DNA from: Dacryopinax spathularia
Taxonomy: Eukaryota; Basidiomycota; Dacrymycetes; Dacrymycetales; Dacrymycetaceae
Assembly (NCBI GenBank): GCA_037974965.1
Contig: JBBPFI010000024.1
Span: 1 to 21,000 of the forward strand
Direction of reading: 5' to 3'
Length of the DNA: 21,000 bases
Below are positions 5,011-20,439 of this stretch, one piece after another (position 1 is the stretch's first letter; each line of letters opens with the position of its first letter). The translations under genes and the position numbers were made by a program. The notes below the pieces were generated by a model. The model ran no database searches. It was not told the origin of the DNA and was given only the letters and a program-made list of their open reading frames with translations.

Positions 5011-6403
5011 ATGATTGGATGAAGTAATGATTCATGTAGAGTAATAAACTATAATTCTAATTTTGGTGAAAACCATATAGGCAATCGCGGATCTAAATTA
5101 CTTTGACTTAGATTAAGTCAAAGTGTAAAAGAGCAACGAACAGACGGTAGTATATTTGAGTTTTGTTAAATCAAATTTAAGGTGTGTTCTAGATATTTTT
5201 GAAAAAAATAGTTATTTCAAAACCCTTTCTTCACAAATAATGAAAAGAAATTATAAATGTTTTCTTTTCTTTTCTCGCTGCAGGCGAAAATATAAGTATT
5301 TTTAAAAAGGCAAAAAGCATAAAAATTTTAATTTAATAATGAGTGTTTATAAAAAAAATTTTACATTAGACCCTTGATTTATAACGGGGTTTACAGATGC
5401 TGAGGGGTGTTTCGGTATATATTTAAGACAACGAAATAAATTAATATTACGTTGAGAAATACAACCTCAGTTTATGATACATTTACATATTAAAGATATT
5501 GATATACTAAACAATATATGTAAAACATTAGGGGTAGGAAAAGTAAGGATACAAGGTTCTAATTCTGCAAGTTTTATTGTTGAAAATATCAAGGAAGCAA
5601 GTATTGTTGTAGATCATTTTTCTAAATATCCTTTAAAAACAGTAAAAGCTTCGGATTATTTAATATGGAAGGAATGCTTAGATATTTTAATAGCTAAAAG
5701 CCATTTTCTTCACTTTATAATATAAAGTGAAGATCTTGAAATAAAAATATTTATTTTTTTTCAAGAAACTAAAAAGGGATTTTTGAGAATTCTAGAATTG
5801 AAAAGTGTTTTAAATTTAGGTTTATCTAAAAATTTAAAAAATTATTTTCCTGATATTAAACCTGCCATTAAACCTAATGTTCCTATTGCTTTGAATTTAG
5901 AACCCTTCTGAATATCAGGTTTTACTAGTGGAGATGGTTCTTTTGTGATTCAAAAACGGGAGATAATAGGTAAAGCTCATTACAGTTTAATATTTACATT
6001 TCATTTACATATTAGAGATATTTTTATATTATATTTAATTAAGGATTTTTTTAAGAATTATCCTAGTATTAATAACAATAAAGAAATTAATATAATTTCT
6101 AAGGATAATAAGGAAGATTTAGTTAAAGAAAGTTTAGGAAAAAAAATAAATAGTAATAGTATGATATATATAGATAAAAATAAAAATAGTGTTCATTTTA
6201 AAATTACAAAACTTTCAGATATAATACAAAAAGTTATTCCTTTTTTTGATTTATATCCTGTGAATGGTATAAAATATTTGGATTATGTTGATTGAAAAAA
6301 AGTAGCTATTATGATAAACAATAAAGAACATTGTTCAACAATTGGTTTAGAATTAATTGAAAATATTAGAAAAAATATGAACAGCCATAGGGAGTGAAAA
6401 TAG
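5011..6403 (+). pseudogene. LAGLIDADG homing endonuclease with three disruptions
   Basis: A double-motif LAGLIDADG gene whose reading frame runs through the intron core. The N-terminal part (ATG 5011, MIGWSNDSC...RGSKLLWLRLSQSVKEQR) stops at TAA 5167-5169. One extra T there shifts the frame, since the next frame continues with the expected SNLRCVLDIFEKN. A second stop is TAA 5303-5305. The first LAGLIDADG domain follows (ATG 5339; WFITGFTDAEGCFGI; HLHIKDIDILNNI). It is stopped by TAA 5723-5725 inside the 60-nt hairpin insertion. The frame resumes unchanged with LTKKGFLRILELKS and the second motif PFWISGFTSGDGSFVIQK, ending at TAG 6401-6403. The 5339-5725 and 5726-6403 parts could in principle act as two separate domains, but loss of function is the simplest reading. 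Confidence 0.85.
5707..5766 (+). repeat. 60-nt double-hairpin insertion in LAGLIDADG gene
   Basis: Two adjacent inverted repeats. Hairpin 1 (5707-5733) has perfect 13-bp arms, TCTTCACTTTATA and TATAAAGTGAAGA, around a single A. Hairpin 2 (5734-5766) has arms TCTTGAAA and TTTCAAGA around an AT-rich interior. Ignoring exactly these 60 nt leaves CAT TTA ACT AAA AAG across the junction, i.e. HLTKKGFLRILEL, which is the usual family sequence. The insertion keeps frame but brings a TAA. Confidence 0.85.
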
Positions 6404-12298: not shown

Positions 12299-12318
12299 CC
12301 CTTGCCTGAAGCCAAGGG
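12299..12318 (+). repeat. 20-nt palindromic insertion in LAGLIDADG gene
   Basis: CCCTTGCCTGAAGCCAAGGG has 6-bp arms CCCTTG/CAAGGG around CCTGAAGC. It is GC-rich in an AT-rich gene. Ignoring exactly these 20 nt restores the frame; there is no evident target-site duplication. Confidence 0.88.
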
Positions 12319-12677: not shown

Positions 12678-12688
12678 CGCGTGGCGAG
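12678..12688 (+). repeat. GC-rich short repeat, copy 1 (CGCGTGGCG core)
   Basis: CGCGTGGCGAG inside the intron vii ORF, in frame (GRVARA). The same core occurs at 19384-19392 and twice at 20440-20460. Confidence 0.8.
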
Positions 12689-13497: not shown

Positions 13498-15544
13498 ATG
13501 TTAGTGTTTACACTATTCTATTTAATTCTAGCCCTTGTGCTATTCTCTTCTGAAATTAGTAAAGGATTTTTTATAAAATTGTCATCTTTATCTTTAACGT
13601 ATGGTTGTTTATTAAGTGTATGTACACTTAATATTCATACACTTGGATCAGGTTTATCTTTATTCAGTGGTTTTTTTCAAGTTACAGTTTTATCTCAAAT
13701 TTTTGATGTTTTTTTATTTTTCTTAGCTGCTTTAGCTATGTTACCTTGGCCTTTAACCTTGAATTTGTATTCCAATAAATTATCTTTAGAAGATGAAGAT
13801 AAAAGCATTTTGGGGGTAAAAACTAAATTGGCAATTTTGGCAATTAATCAATTCTATAATTATTTAAAAGAAAAAAAAGATTTTTTATCTAATATTGAAT
13901 TAGGATTGAAAAGCCCTCAGTATGGATTAGGAATAAACATACCTTATAACTTTAGTTCTCCTATTAAAGAATTTTCTTTATTTTTAATATTTACAATAAT
14001 AGGAGGATCATTTTTAATATCTAGTTCAGATTTAATTTCTGTATATTTAAGTATAGAGCTTCAATCGTTTGGGGTTTATTTATATTCTGCTTTATACAGA
14101 GAAAAAGAATCAAGTGTTTCTGCAGCTTTAAAGTATTATTTATTAGGTAGTTTATCTTCTTGTTTTATATTACTAGGAGGTGTTTTAATATATACTTTTA
14201 GTGGTTTAACACAATTTGATTCAATATATAGTTTTATTTCTGTTACAGGAGATAATCTTTTATATTTATCCTATGTTGAAAATTTTTATTTAAATATAGT
14301 ATCCTATTTAAGTTATGAACAATCTATGTTTAGTACAAATTCGATAAGTATTGGAATACTTTTAGGTATAGTTTTTTTATTATATGGTTTTTTATTTAAG
14401 ATATCAGCAGCTCCTTTTCATAGTTGAGCCCCAGATGTTTATGATGGTACACCTACAATAATAACAACATGATTAACAATAATACCAAAGTTAACTATAT
14501 TTATTTTTTTATTAGAATTTTTAAATGGTTTAAATGGTATAAATATGAATATAGATAATTTATATTTATCTGCAAAATATATTATATTAAATAATTCTCA
14601 AATTACTAGTGTAAGTTCAACTGATATTGTAAATTTGACACTATTCTCTCAAGTTTTATCTTTTATTAATAATTTAAATGATAAATTAAATATGTCAACT
14701 TTAAATGTAATACAAAATTTATTATTAATAAGTTCTTTATTATCTTTAATAATAGGAACAGTAGTAGGACTAAGTCAAATAAGAATAAAAAGATTATTAA
14801 CATTTAGTACAATTTCTCATGTTGGTTTTTTATTGTTAGTGTTATCTTTGAATACAGATAGTTCTATTCAATCATTTATATTTTATTTATTTCAATATTC
14901 TATTACAAATTTAGATATATTTTTTATATTATTAGCATTTGGTTATGTAATTGATAGGTATCGTCCGTATATATAGTCAAAAGTTGATAGACGAAGGACG
15001 TGAAAAAGGTATTATAGAAAAAGAAAATTTTAAAACAAAAGTATTTATTACTGATATTACTTACATTGAAGATTTAAAAGGTTTATTTTATATTTTTCCT
15101 TTATTATCTTTAAGTTTTGCAGTTTGTTTATTTTCAATGGCAGGTACTCCGCCTATGATTGGTTTTTTTGCAAAACAACAATTATTATTTGCTACATTAT
15201 ATAGTGGATATTATTTTATGTCTTTTATAGCTATACTTGTTAGTGTAGTAAGTGCTTCTTATTATTTAAAAATAATAAGAGTATTATGTTTTTCATCAGA
15301 AGGTTTATTTCTAAAAATATATAAATATACATCTTATCCTGAAGATACGATTACAAATCTTTTTTTGAGAAATTATCTAATCTCAAGATTATTGAACAGT
15401 TATATTAAAGATTTTCAAATTATTAATAATTATCAAAGTTTTATTATTTCATTTTTAACTTTATTTATTTTAGCTTTTATATTTAAATCCTCATTTATAC
15501 TAAATAGTGCACTACTTTGTGCTGAAGCCAGTTTTTTTTTATAA
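13498..15544 (+). CDS. nad2: NADH dehydrogenase subunit 2 (with a frameshift)
   Basis: A membrane proton-pumping subunit of respiratory complex I. The first frame gives many hydrophobic helices and conserved blocks: [83 protein letters not shown]. It stops at TAG 14974-14976. The remainder is in the next frame: [49 protein letters not shown], ending TAA 15542-15544. The shift must lie between 14951 and 14976, because the second frame has a stop at 14948. It is probably a 1-nt error or indel in a variable loop; programmed shifting is possible. ATG 13498 is chosen as start; TTG 13468 in the same frame would add ten residues. About 680 residues, somewhat long for nad2. Confidence 0.9.
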
Positions 15545-15551
15545 AGAAGTA

Positions 15552-15938
15552 ATGACAACCTTTATAGTTTTTTTAATATTTATACCAATATTAGTAATAA
15601 ATTTATTATTACTAAATCTATTATTAGCAGTACATAAACCTTATGCTGAAAAAGTAGAAGTTTATGAATGTGGTTTTCATCCTGTAGGAGAACAAACAAG
15701 ATCAGCTTTTAATGTTCAATTTTTTCTTTTAGCTTTATTATTTATGGTGTTTGATGTAGAGCTTATACTGTTTGCACCTATTGTTCTTTCTATTAAAAAT
15801 GTAGATTCTTATGGTTTAATTATTGCAATGTTATTTTTTGTATTATTAACCTTTGGATTTATATATGAAATAGGTAAAGGAGCTTTAAAAATTAAAAATG
15901 TTTTACCATTACATTCGAGTAATAAAAATGAAAGATAA
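15552..15938 (+). CDS. nad3: NADH dehydrogenase subunit 3
   Basis: A complex I membrane subunit of 128 residues. It contains the diagnostic loop KVEVYECGFHPVGEQTRSAF with its redox-sensitive Cys, then FNVQFFLLALLFMVFDVE and two more helices. ATG 15552 starts 7 nt after the nad2 stop; the nad2-nad3 pair is a common fungal arrangement and suggests one transcript. The last 11 nt overlap the start of the following unidentified ORF. Confidence 0.97.
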   Translation: MTTFIVFLIFIPILVINLLLLNLLLAVHKPYAEKVEVYECGFHPVGEQTRSAFNVQFFLLALLFMVFDVELILFAPIVLSIKNVDSYGLIIAMLFFVLLTFGFIYEIGKGALKIKNVLPLHSSNKNER

Positions 15939-17121
15939 TATTTTTAAGTATATTTATTATTCAAAATGATTTAATTTATTTGCTATGCGTATTGTCACGC
16001 GTAAGGATAAATCTTTTTTAGCCGTAGGCGTAAAAATTTTTTTTATATTATTTTTTTTACTTTTATTTTTATTAAAGATATATTTATTTCTATTTTTTAT
16101 ATGATTTCAATTAGGGTCGTCATATGGTTTAATATATTACTTTTTAAAGATCTTTATTTTTTTATTATTTTTATTAATTATAAATAAATTTAAATTTCTT
16201 AATTTGTCTTTGAGATTAGATATAATATTTTATATAATAGATATTTGTAGAAATATAATTTATAAAATAAGAAAATTTATAGAGTGAATTATATTTTTAA
16301 AATTATTAAAGAATGTGAGATTTAGTATATATTTATTTTCTTTTAATATAAGTGACGTGGACAGAGATGGTTCTTACATTTGATATATTTTTTTTTTTAT
16401 TATAATTATAATGTTATTACTATTTTTTTCACGAAAATGTACTTATATAAAAAATGTGATAAAGAAAATAGGATCTGAAATTAAAAATGTGAAAGAGAAT
16501 ATATGATTTGGAATAAAATTGATTTGTATTATTTATGACTTTAGAGATAGATTAAATTATACTGAGCTAATTTTTAAATTATTAATGGATAAGTATAATA
16601 AAAAATATAAATCCAATTTTCTAACTTGTCTTTGATCAAAGATAAAATTAGAATATACAATTAAGAAGTATAAAATAATATTAAAATATTGAGCTATGAA
16701 GTATAGAATAATATCCATATTTGACTATAATTTAAATTTAATTATTGTTATTGTAAAATCGCTAGGTAAATTTGTAAAGGTATATAATTCTTGTGCGGTC
16801 GCCATGCAGAAAATCCTAAATAAAGTTTATGATTATGTAATTATAATTAGAGTAGCAATAAGATATAATATTAATATGTATTTTTTATTTCATAAATGAA
16901 TTAAAAATAAATTAATATTAGTATATAAAATATGAAAAAACCCTGATCTTATTAAAGTAATTCTAAAAAAAGTTATTCAAATATTAGTTAAACATATGAT
17001 TTTTTTTTTAATTAGGTTAACTTCGTTCGCTCTTAGATCTCATTTTAATCTTTTTATATTAGTTTTAATATTTTTATTTATTTTTTATATATTAATAAAA
17101 TGATTAATTTATATAGTTTAA
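15928..17121 (+). CDS. Unidentified 397-residue membrane protein ORF
   Basis: ATG 15928 to TAA 17119-17121, with about ten TGA codons read as Trp, which hides it from a standard-code search. The protein is rich in Ile, Leu, Phe and Lys. Hydrophobic segments are near residues 33-57 (VKIFFILFFLLLFLL...), 63-85 (LIYYFLKIFIFLLFLL), 153-170 (YIFFFIIIIMLLLFF) and the C-terminal 35 residues (FILVLIFLFIFYILI). Between them lies a basic stretch, residues about 170-350, with many Lys/Tyr/Ile. I see no match to cox, nad, atp, cob or rps3 motifs. In sequence this AT-rich, about 400 codons without TAA or TAG are very unlikely by chance. It overlaps nad3 by 11 nt, so it is probably cotranscribed. It carries the GC 10-mer at 16021-16030. 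Confidence 0.75.
16021..16030 (+). repeat. GC-rich short repeat GCCGTAGGCG, copy 2
   Basis: Identical to 13006-13015; here it is read in frame as AVGV within the unidentified ORF. Confidence 0.6.
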
Positions 17122-17770: not shown

Positions 17771-17822
17771 AAAAAATTAGTTTGTTATTTTTATATTTTA
17801 ATTTTAACAAACTAATTTTTTT
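17771..17822 (+). repeat. 17-bp perfect inverted repeat
   Basis: Left arm AAAAAATTAGTTTGTTA (17771-17787), right arm TAACAAACTAATTTTTT from 17805. A 17-nt AT loop lies between. The T-run after the right arm is terminator-like, but fungal mitochondria are not known to use such terminators. Confidence 0.85.
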
Positions 17823-17968
17823 TAAATTTTGTTTATAATAGGAATAACGCTTATTCATTTGTTTTTTGGTTATTTTAAAGAAAACTTTTATTATTTATTC
17901 CTTTTTAGGTTTAAATTTTAAATTTTAAATTTTTCATCGAAACGCGCTGTAAAAACGGCATCAAAATT

Positions 17969-17995
17969 TTATTCCGTTCTGTCTAAACGGAATAA
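17969..17995 (+). repeat. 10-bp hairpin
   Basis: TTATTCCGTT and AACGGAATAA around CTGTCTA. Confidence 0.85.
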
Positions 17996-18111
17996 TTTTT
18001 TGTCGTTCGAACGAATTTCTTTAAAATAAAGTATTAAGAATATTAAAAAAATATTTTTTTTAATATTACTTAGAATTATTTTTTTGCGTATTTTTTTTTT
18101 AGTTAATATTA

Positions 18112-18369
18112 ATGTTTTTATCAAAATTTCATACAATATTAAATAATATTTTTAGTGCATTATATTTATATAATGATGCTCCATTACCATGAGCTTTAGG
18201 ATTTCAAGATGGTGCTACACCAGGCTTTGAAGGAATAACTACACTTCATAATACTATATTCTTTTTTTTAGTAGTAATATTTTTTGGAGTTTTATGGGTA
18301 TTAATTTCAGTAATGTACTATTTTAATACTAAAAATTCCGCAATAGTTTATAAATATTTAAATCATGGT
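18112..18369 (+). CDS. cox2: Cytochrome c oxidase subunit 2, exon 1
   Basis: Subunit of complex IV that receives electrons from cytochrome c. Exon 1 encodes 86 residues: NDAPLPWALGFQDGATPGF, the first transmembrane helix (IFFFLVVIFFGVLWVLISVM) and YKYLNHG. It ends in frame at GGT; GGT pairs with GCC shortly downstream, as P1 of the intron. Reading resumes at 19694 with [15 protein letters not shown] 18112 is the first in-frame ATG. Confidence 0.96.
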
Positions 18370-18671
18370 ACACGTGTGCCTATTCAAAAGTGTTTTAAGT
18401 TTAGATTAAGTATGTACGTTTTTATAGTACAAGCTCTTCAGCAACTTCATCAAAGATTAATAGTATAAAATTTTATGATGATGCTTATTCTATGAGAAAA
18501 TTAATAATAAAAGATAATAAATATAAATCAGGTATTTATAAATGAACTAATAAATTAACAAATGACATTTATGTTGGGCAATCAATTAAATTAGCTAAAA
18601 GATTTATTAGATATTTCAATCTTAGTTATTTACAAAATAGAAAAACACTTGTAATTTATAAAAATATTGCA

Positions 18672-18733
18672 TATTTTTATAAATAACCTAATTTAAAAAT
18701 AAAATTTATTTTTAAATGGTAATAAGTAGGGAT
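18672..18733 (+). repeat. Hairpin insertion in GIY-YIG gene, copy A
   Basis: A block of about 62 nt between NIA and LIKYGYSN. It contains a 27-nt perfect palindrome at 18691-18717 (13-bp arms ATTTAAAAATAAA and TTTATTTTTAAAT around one A) and a weaker upstream stem TATTT/AAATA at 18672-18685. The frame on the two sides differs by two, which fits a 62-nt insertion. The exact ends are uncertain. Confidence 0.7.
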
Positions 18734-18773
18734 TTAATTAAATACGGTTATTCTAATTTTTTTTAGAAATTTT

Positions 18774-18830
18774 TCTTTAAAAAATAAATTTATTTTTTAA
18801 AGATCCTTATTAAAAAAAAAAAAGTAAGGA
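18774..18830 (+). repeat. 57-nt double-hairpin insertion in GIY-YIG gene, copy B
   Basis: A 30-nt perfect palindrome (18774-18803; arms TCTTTAAAAAATAAA and TTTATTTTTTAAAGA) is followed directly by a 27-nt hairpin (18804-18830; arms TCCTTA and TAAGGA, A-rich loop). Without these 57 nt the codons read GAA ATT TTA GAA TAC TGT GAT (EILEYCD), the expected GIY-YIG sequence. Confidence 0.88.
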
Positions 18831-19086
18831 AGAATACTGTGATATAAATAACTTAACAAAAAGAGAACAATATTATTTAGATAAATTGAATCCTGAGTAC
18901 AATACTTTAAAAATAGCAGGTAGTTCTTTAGGTCGCAAACATACTGAAGAAACTAAGAAAAAAATCAGTAAATCTTTAAAGGGAATTTATATTAAAGAAA
19001 AGTCAGCTTTATTTGGGCGTACTCATAGTGAAGCAACCAAAGCACTTATGTCTTTAAAGAAAATTAATAAAAACAATCCTTTATTT

Positions 19087-19151
19087 CATTTATTAAAAAA
19101 AAAATATGTATATTTTTTTTTTTAATAAAAAGCTTTTTTCTTAGAGAAAAG
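19087..19151 (+). repeat. About 65-nt double-hairpin insertion in GIY-YIG gene, copy C
   Basis: Hairpin 1 (19089-19129) has arms TTTATT-A10-TAT and ATA-T11-AATAAA around GT, with one unpaired base. Hairpin 2 is weaker (CTTTTTT against GAAAAGG, 19133-19152). Ignoring 65 nt joins NNPLF to GKNHTEETKK. Confidence 0.72.
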
Positions 19152-19383
19152 GGTAAGAATCATACTGAAGAAACTAAAAAGTTAATGAGTCAAAAAGCTT
19201 TAGGTAGAAAACACTCTGAAGCAACTTGATTAAAAATGAGTGCTAGTAAAGGTTATATTGTAAATATACAGGAAAAATCTGATTTAGAAGAAATTAAAGT
19301 AATAGGTAATTTTTTTTCAATCAGAAAAGCTGCTAAATTTTTAGGTATTAGTAGTAATACTATAAGATTGTATTTAAATACCC

Positions 19384-19392
19384 CGCGTGGCG
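19384..19392 (+). repeat. GC-rich short repeat, copy 2 (CGCGTGGCG)
   Basis: CGCGTGGCG near the C-terminus of the GIY-YIG ORF (NTPRGVKND). Confidence 0.8.
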
Positions 19393-19693
19393 TGAAAAAT
19401 GATTTAAAAATAAATATAGATTTATTCGCATTATTCTCAAATAAACTTAAAAAAAACAATGATTAAAATTCCACTATATGTTGAAAATTCATGAAAATTT
19501 TAGTAACTAAAAAATTTACAAACCTATTTTTAGGTCTAACTTTCCAAAAGAAAACTAAAAGGACTATCAACAGGAAACCACTAGATATTAAATAGTTTAG
19601 TAGGATCCTTAGAGACTACACGTGGAAACCATTTTATAATAAAAATTAATGGTAAGATATAGTCCTGTTAAATATGAAAATATTTATGTAAAG

Positions 19694-19822
19694 ACACTAA
19701 TAGAATTAATTTGGACAATTACACCAGCTCTTATATTAATGGTTATTGCTTTTCCATCATTTAAATTATTATATTTATTAGATGAAGTAATATCACCAAC
19801 ATTGACAATTAAAGTTGCTGGT
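19694..19822 (+). CDS. cox2: Cytochrome c oxidase subunit 2, exon 2
   Basis: 43 codons: [28 protein letters not shown] (second transmembrane helix region) and [10 protein letters not shown]. The exon ends at GGT; CTGGT pairs with GGCCAG (about 19834-19839), giving a P1 with U-G at the splice site. Confidence 0.95.
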
Positions 19823-20439
19823 TTTTTTAATGATGGCCAGAAATCAATAGAATATAATTTATATTATTTTTTTGACAATAATTTTTTTTTTAATAATTTA
19901 ATTATAGTATCTTGTCCTTTTTATTTTTATTGTAAGAAAAATTCTAATACTAAATCTTTTCATACTTACTGTAGATCTATTCAAAGAATAGGTCCACATA
20001 ATCAAGATGTTATTTCAGTTATTTTCGGATTATTATTAGGAGATGGTTATGCTAATAACCGTTCTGGTGAAGGGGTTAGAATTGCAATAAAACAAAGTGT
20101 GATTCATAAAGATTATTTGTTCTTTTTATATTCTTTTTTTTATTTAAGAGGTTATTGTAGTAATTTAAAACCTAGAAAATATGAAAGAAAAATAAAGGGT
20201 AAATCAGATATTTATAGTGGATTTGAATTTAATACTTATACTTTTAGAAGTTTTTATTGAATATATGAATTTTTTTTGAAAATGGTATAAAAAAAGTACC
20301 TGTTAATTTAGAATTTTATTTAACTCCTCAATGTTTAGCTATATGGTTAATGGATGATGGTGGTTATGCGAATCCAGGGGTTAGGATAGCTACACATTCT
20401 TTTACTAAAGAAGAGATATTTAAATTAATAATAATTTCT

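Follow-up and report, generated by a model that had tools for sequence, protein, structure and literature searches.

A 57-nt block inside a GIY-YIG endonuclease gene in the mitochondrial DNA of Dacryopinax spathularia is, with a probability that we put at about 0.75, a member of a family of short, mobile, AT-rich double-hairpin elements that was inserted bluntly into what is most likely now a dead endonuclease gene. The block, insert B, lies in the window, by which we mean the whole stretch of 21,000 nucleotides that was analyzed, and consists of two hairpins standing flush against each other. The first, TCTTTAAAAAATAAATTTATTTTTTAAAGA, is a perfect palindrome with arms of 15 and 15 nt, and the second, TCCTTATTAAAAAAAAAAAAGTAAGGA, has a stem of six Watson-Crick pairs, then a G.T pair, and then one further pair. 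The insert interrupts a TT/A leucine codon (the slash marks the point of entry, here and below) and brings a TAA into the entering frame, so that the back-to-back, frame-stopping palindrome and hairpin described in the initial annotation are confirmed. A perfect palindrome with arms of at least 12 bp followed directly by a hairpin that closes with six or more pairs is an arrangement that the 141,479-bp mitogenome shows only here, and none of 20 second-order Markov resamples contained it. Insert B is single-copy, since a search of the assembly allowing up to two mismatches for the palindrome and up to three for the hairpin gave no second match. Its mobility is therefore inferred from its architecture, its ends, its siblings, and an empty orthologue.

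The assembly comprises 29.2 Mb in 24 contigs. The window is contig C24, whose mitochondrial DNA is also represented by contig C19; C19 is 146,554 bp long, its ends overlap, and it closes to give the circular mitogenome, which has 24.7% GC. Positions on the circle are given as M, in the orientation of the window; they equal window positions up to 14,967 and exceed them by 2 thereafter, the difference being due to a TA of nad2 that is missing from the window. At window position 14968, nad2 seems frameshifted; C19 has the two extra bases there and an open nad2, and the frameshift is an assembly error in the window. Such small errors, together with homopolymer differences between the assembled copies elsewhere in the mitogenome, are what could suggest that insert B is itself an artefact of assembly, which we consider very improbable. 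A sharp-ended block of 57 nt differs from the known kind of error, and insert B reads the same in C24 and at either of the two overlapping ends of C19, three assembled copies that agree over window positions 17,817 to 20,141, with the qualification that the copies may share reads and so are not independent.

Several other features of the mitogenome were observed. An inverted repeat of about 10.3 kb (M 70,718-81,054 and 121,364-131,662) is 99.4% identical between its copies, with 2 mismatches and 55 gap openings, and is adjoined by runs of 200 N in C19. The last coding stretch of cob is present in three copies (M 57243, 60647, and 62262) that are 87 to 96% identical, two of which continue into an unidentified open reading frame. 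A 407-amino-acid open reading frame at window positions 15898 to 17118, in a region of 17% GC, gave no Pfam match at E 0.01, and several long open reading frames of the mitogenome resemble, by eye, group II intron reverse transcriptases. For nad5, PF00662 gave no match in the 29 Mb, PF00361 matched at the nad2 and nad4 positions only, and generic nad5 probes run against the whole assembly yielded a weak match inside nad4 as their sole result; nad5 may lie in missing sequence.

Insert B is one of three inserts that divide the GIY-YIG gene into four coding pieces (Table 1). The gene lies downstream of an open reading frame, beginning DAPLPWALGFQDGATPGFEG, that we recognized by eye and take to be the first exon of cox2. 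The pieces are well kept: pieces 1, 3, and 4 together have 249 codons and no stop, where random sequence of like composition would have 0.083 stops per codon, and pieces 3 and 4 alone run for 85 and 104 codons, respectively, without a stop. The GC content of inserts A, B, and C is 0.12 each. Insert A (68 nt) and insert C (65 nt) both shift the frame. The left part of insert A is complementary to the coding sequence immediately upstream, and its ends are less certain than those of inserts B and C; homologues have three residues and no insert at this place. Piece 4 starts at position 25 of the NUMOD3 profile. Within piece 2, the LEI/LEYCD reading is out of frame with KYGYSN owing to a run of eight T's, a frame change that may be genuine or may be one more of the homopolymer errors seen elsewhere in the assembly. 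The initial annotation had presented insert B as an exactly excisable block in a GIY-YIG gene. The gene assignment stands on the matches of its pieces to PF01541 and the NUMOD profiles, and excision does restore a local match to homologues across the junction, but the T8 run breaks the frame just upstream and inserts A and C lie in the same gene. Covariance models run over positions 18300 to 19850 gave only a chance-level snoRNA match (19707-19768, E=1.2) and none at insert B, and there was no Rfam intron match inside the cox2 intron.

Table 1. Features of the GIY-YIG gene in the cox2 intron and of the recurrent insertion sites (window positions unless marked M)
Feature	Position	Strand	Remarks
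cox2 first exon (presumed), 3' end approximate	18112..18380	+	Open reading frame ending YLNHGT; upstream of the GIY-YIG-bearing intron
GIY-YIG coding piece 1	18492..18671	+	First half of catalytic domain; PF01541 E=8.9e-5, profile 2-40 of 78
Insert A	18672..18739	+	68 nt; hairpin with 13-bp stem in the middle
Coding piece 2	18740..18773	+	KYGYSN... / LEI; frame change at T8 run 18757-18764
Insert B, hairpin 1	18774..18803	+	30-nt perfect palindrome; ends TCTT...AAGA
Insert B, hairpin 2	18804..18830	+	27 nt; abuts hairpin 1 and the coding sequence
Coding piece 3	18831..19086	+	Last base of Leu codon, EYCD...NNPLF, NUMOD3; PF07460 E=3.3e-12
Insert C	19087..19151	+	65 nt; hairpins with stems of 16 and 8 bp, separated by 3 nt; interrupts a NUMOD3 repeat
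Coding piece 4	19152..19466	+	GKNHTEETKK..., NUMOD3, NUMOD1, stop; PF07453 E=1.9e-7, PF07460 E=2e-6
Double hairpin in LAGLIDADG gene	5707..5766	+	60 nt; Leu codon TT/A of His-Leu-Thr site
Asp-codon copies	M 69.1k, 70.3k, 75.8k, 78.6k, 103.4k, 89.3k		89.3k from junction-motif listing
Thr-codon subfamily	M 70.2k, 72.3k, 103.5k		AC/N
Leu-codon subfamily	M 5.7k, 73.3k, 102.6k		TT/A of His-Leu-Thr site; right end at 102.6k approximate

Homologous genes are uninterrupted at the site of insert B. Three genes on an IMG/VR contig, L022, read LEILEYCD, LEIIEYCD, and LEILEYCC, and two further loci read LDILEFC (L081) and SILEYCD (L084), compared with LEI/LEYCD in the window. The L084 gene, on an IMG/VR contig from another fungus, carries none of inserts A, B, and C, and it is preceded by an identical cox2 exon end (YLNHG), by which it is placed in the same cox2 intron. 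Given that the homologues, L084 among them, are gap-free at the junction, insert B is, as judged from these alignments, an insertion. This agrees with the initial annotation, which had preferred insertion to random decay; the ends are sharp, and the block, when looked for as a conserved part of related introns in L022, L081, and L084, was absent, including from the same cox2 intron in L084. The first GIY-YIG scan covered 59 loci, of which none matched cox2 at E <= 1e-3; L022 alone was taken further from it; a cox1 query gave three loci, and a bacterial-looking one, L083, was left out of the references. An automatic split-homology search returned eight candidates, and the exact insert B junction was not among them, so that its silence on the cob and cox1 exons carries little weight. 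The L084 gene itself, at about 5,400 to 6,300, has a frame break between its GIY and YIG motifs, and decay of the cox2-intron GIY-YIG endonuclease may be common.

The mitogenome contains many structures of the same kind. Perfect-stem hairpins with stems of at least 13 bp number 32, and in three first-order resamples no stem exceeded 12 bp. When the mitogenome was scanned for pairs of strong, neighboring hairpins, 17 scored at least 18, four of them in the second copy of the large inverted repeat, versus 0, 0, 0, and 0 in four resamples; this count excludes both insert B, whose weak second stem falls under the scan threshold, and insert C, because of its 3-nt spacer. The suggestion in the initial annotation that the genome harbors a family of such elements of its own is upheld, and the family is large. 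Among the 62 hairpins whose stems reach at least 11 bp, 8 have ends of the form TCTY...RAGA, compared with 0.54 expected, insert B and one hairpin in nad2 coding sequence being counted among the eight. The junction motif AAGATCTYG is found at eight distinct hairpin inserts and at one non-hairpin place, and the junction of insert B, AAAGATCC, matches it only in part. Another fungal contig, L082, has, within an open frame, a 54-nt double hairpin whose second half reads TCTT...AAGA.

The pair formed by insert C and its second copy, taken together with an empty paralogue, is, at the level of sequence comparison, the best single evidence for movement. The copy, on the opposite strand at a distance of 45 kb (M 64,067-64,153), has an unrelated context and is 93% identical over 87 bp; GGTAAG follows the insert in both copies, and near M 61,160 the region hosting the second copy has a paralogue from which insert C is missing. 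These observations also bear on a quite different origin, in which each palindrome would have formed where it now stands, through fold-back template switching as the DNA replicated, and would have stayed there. Such events are favored by AT-rich runs, and the complementarity of the left part of insert A to its upstream coding sequence is what a fold-back copy would leave. We nevertheless hold a fold-back origin to be unlikely, given that insert C recurs outside its context with an empty paralogue, that the arms of insert B show no visible copying from the sequence around it, and that the elements at a recurrent aspartate codon are alike despite unlike flanks.

That aspartate codon is one of three recurrent targets (Table 1). 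In six genes, elements of the form CCTTYATTT...AAGATCTYGATTT...AAGA, 57 to 74 nt long in the five that were measured, interrupt the LAGLIDADG motif directly behind the first base of its Asp, Asn, or Glu codon, all in one orientation, and a probable seventh copy, from the junction-motif listing, lies at 91.6k in the opposite orientation. Across four of the copies, the elements are 76 to 94% identical (all columns), compared with 51 to 62% for the 90-nt flanks. Like elements at the same codon of unlike genes point to transfer of the element with little of its flanks. A narrow motif scan found 22 unsplit LAGLIDADG motifs, three of which are inverted-repeat copies, and the Asp-codon element pattern had no matches in IMG/VR. 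Flanking repeats measure 0 nt in seven of nine measured inserts and 1 nt in the other two; for inserts B and C they are 0 nt. In a further comparison, repeats are 0 in four rows covering the Leu site and insert C and 2, 3, and 3 nt at the Thr site.

Some further observations concern short hairpins in and around these genes. Double hairpins that are in frame and free of stops, as judged by eye, occur at 72.6k (about 63 nt) and 69.4k (54 nt), and these may simply be translated. Small GC hairpins (TCCCCACGGGA and CCCTACAGG...) are nested inside the Leu-site double hairpins at M 73325 and 102599, which is insertion into an insertion. A GC-rich palindromic fragment, CCTTGCCTGAAGCCAAGG, is identical in two LAGLIDADG genes (window 12300-12317 and M 70479), and at 70.5k it is part of 20 extra nucleotides that separate aligned codons. 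The GC-rich motif CGCGTGGCG occurs at 21 places on M, on both strands and partly inside endonuclease open reading frames (window positions 12678, 19384, 20440, and 20452 are among them), and is possibly another ultra-short repeat family.

The initial annotation had left open that the gene is expressed by removal or bypass of the block. Tolerated inserts of this kind, skipped by the ribosome as in byp elements or removed from the RNA so that the endonuclease is still made, would fit with the exact placement of the inserts relative to homologous codons, with the recurrence at one codon in six genes, and with coding pieces that are mostly open and conserved; by eye, even the 70k gene, with about four inserts, one of them GC-rich, is open in the segments between them. 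At the Thr site, two of three copies have a 3-nt flanking repeat. At insert B and at the others of the nine measured inserts, by comparison, the repeat is at most 1 nt, hence there is no matched take-off and landing codon, and five of the nine are not multiples of three (insert B, at 57 nt, is). Two 11-bp nad2 hairpins sit in open coding sequence, and the interrupted genes have further lesions, namely, the T8 frame change in the GIY-YIG gene, an in-frame TAA at 69k, and a frame change in an A run at 103k. No insert was seen in the recognized core genes, with the limits that not every exon is delimited and that nad5 was not found. The preference of the elements for endonuclease motifs weakens the argument that core genes offer against bypass, and for the same reason we did not retain the absence from core exons as proof of lethality; open reading frames are likewise a biased control, since stop-bearing inserts split them. 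Recent bursts of insertion would explain the well-kept coding pieces, as continued expression also would, and tolerance by removal or bypass is accordingly kept as an unlikely alternative. With no matched codons at insert B and no insert seen in the recognized core genes, expression of the gene by either route found no support here, and the precision, which blunt, site-recurrent insertion explains, is in itself no argument for removal. The TAA in insert B, the frame shifts in inserts A and C, and the lack of a codon repeat at insert B make inactivation the simplest reading. A combined proposal, in which each hairpin subfamily is a site-specific parasite of homing-endonuclease genes aimed at one conserved codon (for the catalytic Asp of LAGLIDADG, for Thr, or for Leu) and carriers survive through removal or skipping at expression, so that selfish introns would bear selfish passengers that silence themselves, appears unlikely to us, a little more so than tolerance as such.

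On the inactivation reading, the element enters homing-endonuclease genes bluntly and at recurrent codons, and no duplication of the target is clear. Most probably DNA was copied from one related endonuclease gene to another through recombination or a template switch in the handful of conserved bases that flank the site, with help from the hairpins; the alternative would be that an RNA hairpin was inserted by reverse transcription. The GIY-YIG gene, with three inserts and a T-run frame change, would most likely be a dead endonuclease gene, and the cox2 intron would stay as a splicing element, because cox2 needs the intron removed.

The double-hairpin elements of Allomyces, ascribed to Paquin 2000, reportedly consist of two adjacent hairpins of tens of bases in dispersed copies. 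In the cited sections of published work, the double hairpins of Allomyces and Schizosaccharomyces are G+C-rich and were scanned for at a GC content above 75% (PMC10085805), those of fission yeast are intergenic or in rRNA genes (PMC10085805, PMC2800124), and RNA-mediated insertion was suggested for Allomyces on the grounds that flanking duplications are absent (PMC2800124). The comparison with these elements drawn in the initial annotation is apt with respect to architecture, since two adjacent stem-loops are also present in inserts B and C, the second stem of B being weak. As far as those sections describe them, the likeness extends to the absence of a flanking target duplication (0 nt at inserts B and C and 0 to 1 nt in the nine inserts, with 2 to 3 nt possible at the Thr site). 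Dispersed copies may be a further likeness, being found here for insert C and the Asp-codon group but not for insert B, which is itself absent from the same intron of one other fungus. The difference is one of composition and place, since inserts A, B, and C have 12% GC and many inserts lie in endonuclease genes. As G+C-richness fails at 12% GC, insert B is not filed as a double-hairpin element, but it works like one, and we read it as an AT-rich relative, in kind, of these elements that inactivates endonuclease genes. The first hairpin of insert C, an A run, TATGTATA, and a T run, is similar to the (A)n-TATA-(T)n palindromes of Fusarium, which are described in the section cited as AT-rich, intergenic single hairpins that are optional between two species (PMC7218506). 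The byp elements of Magnusiomyces, described in the cited part of that study as disrupting 12 of 15 protein genes at 81 sites and being translationally bypassed, are likewise short blocks interrupting mitochondrial reading frames, but insert B has no matched codons, and none of the inserts here was seen in recognized core genes (PMC5009743).

A close precedent is in Annulohypoxylon stygium, for which the cited sections describe short fragments or small inverted repeats of 12 to 106 bp (75% of them 30 to 60) that mostly form hairpins (PMC6140425). Some are multicopy, they occur in LAGLIDADG_1 and GIY-YIG regions, including a tandem pair in one GIY-YIG region, they vary between isolates, and three are regarded as short introns, in nad5 or rns; the authors propose reduced endonuclease activity and hindered intron mobility (PMC6140425). 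Structure and location in intron endonucleases are thus shared with the inserts here, as far as those sections go, and with hairpin fragments in GIY-YIG and LAGLIDADG regions the general phenomenon is already known. Codon-exact recurrence across endonuclease genes is found here and is not described for A. stygium in the same sections (PMC6140425). With precedents known in Annulohypoxylon, Fusarium, and Allomyces, it is the recurrence at one endonuclease codon that may be new; it was absent from the titles and abstract beginnings of the literature searched, and we do not claim that it is unpublished.

For the movement of tiny, gene-less mitochondrial hairpin elements, one subfamily at the same codon of six endonuclease genes with unlike flanks gives a defined and testable target rather than general evidence of mobility. 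The finding suggests a route by which selfish introns are disarmed, in which the endonuclease motif would itself be the landing site of a smaller element.
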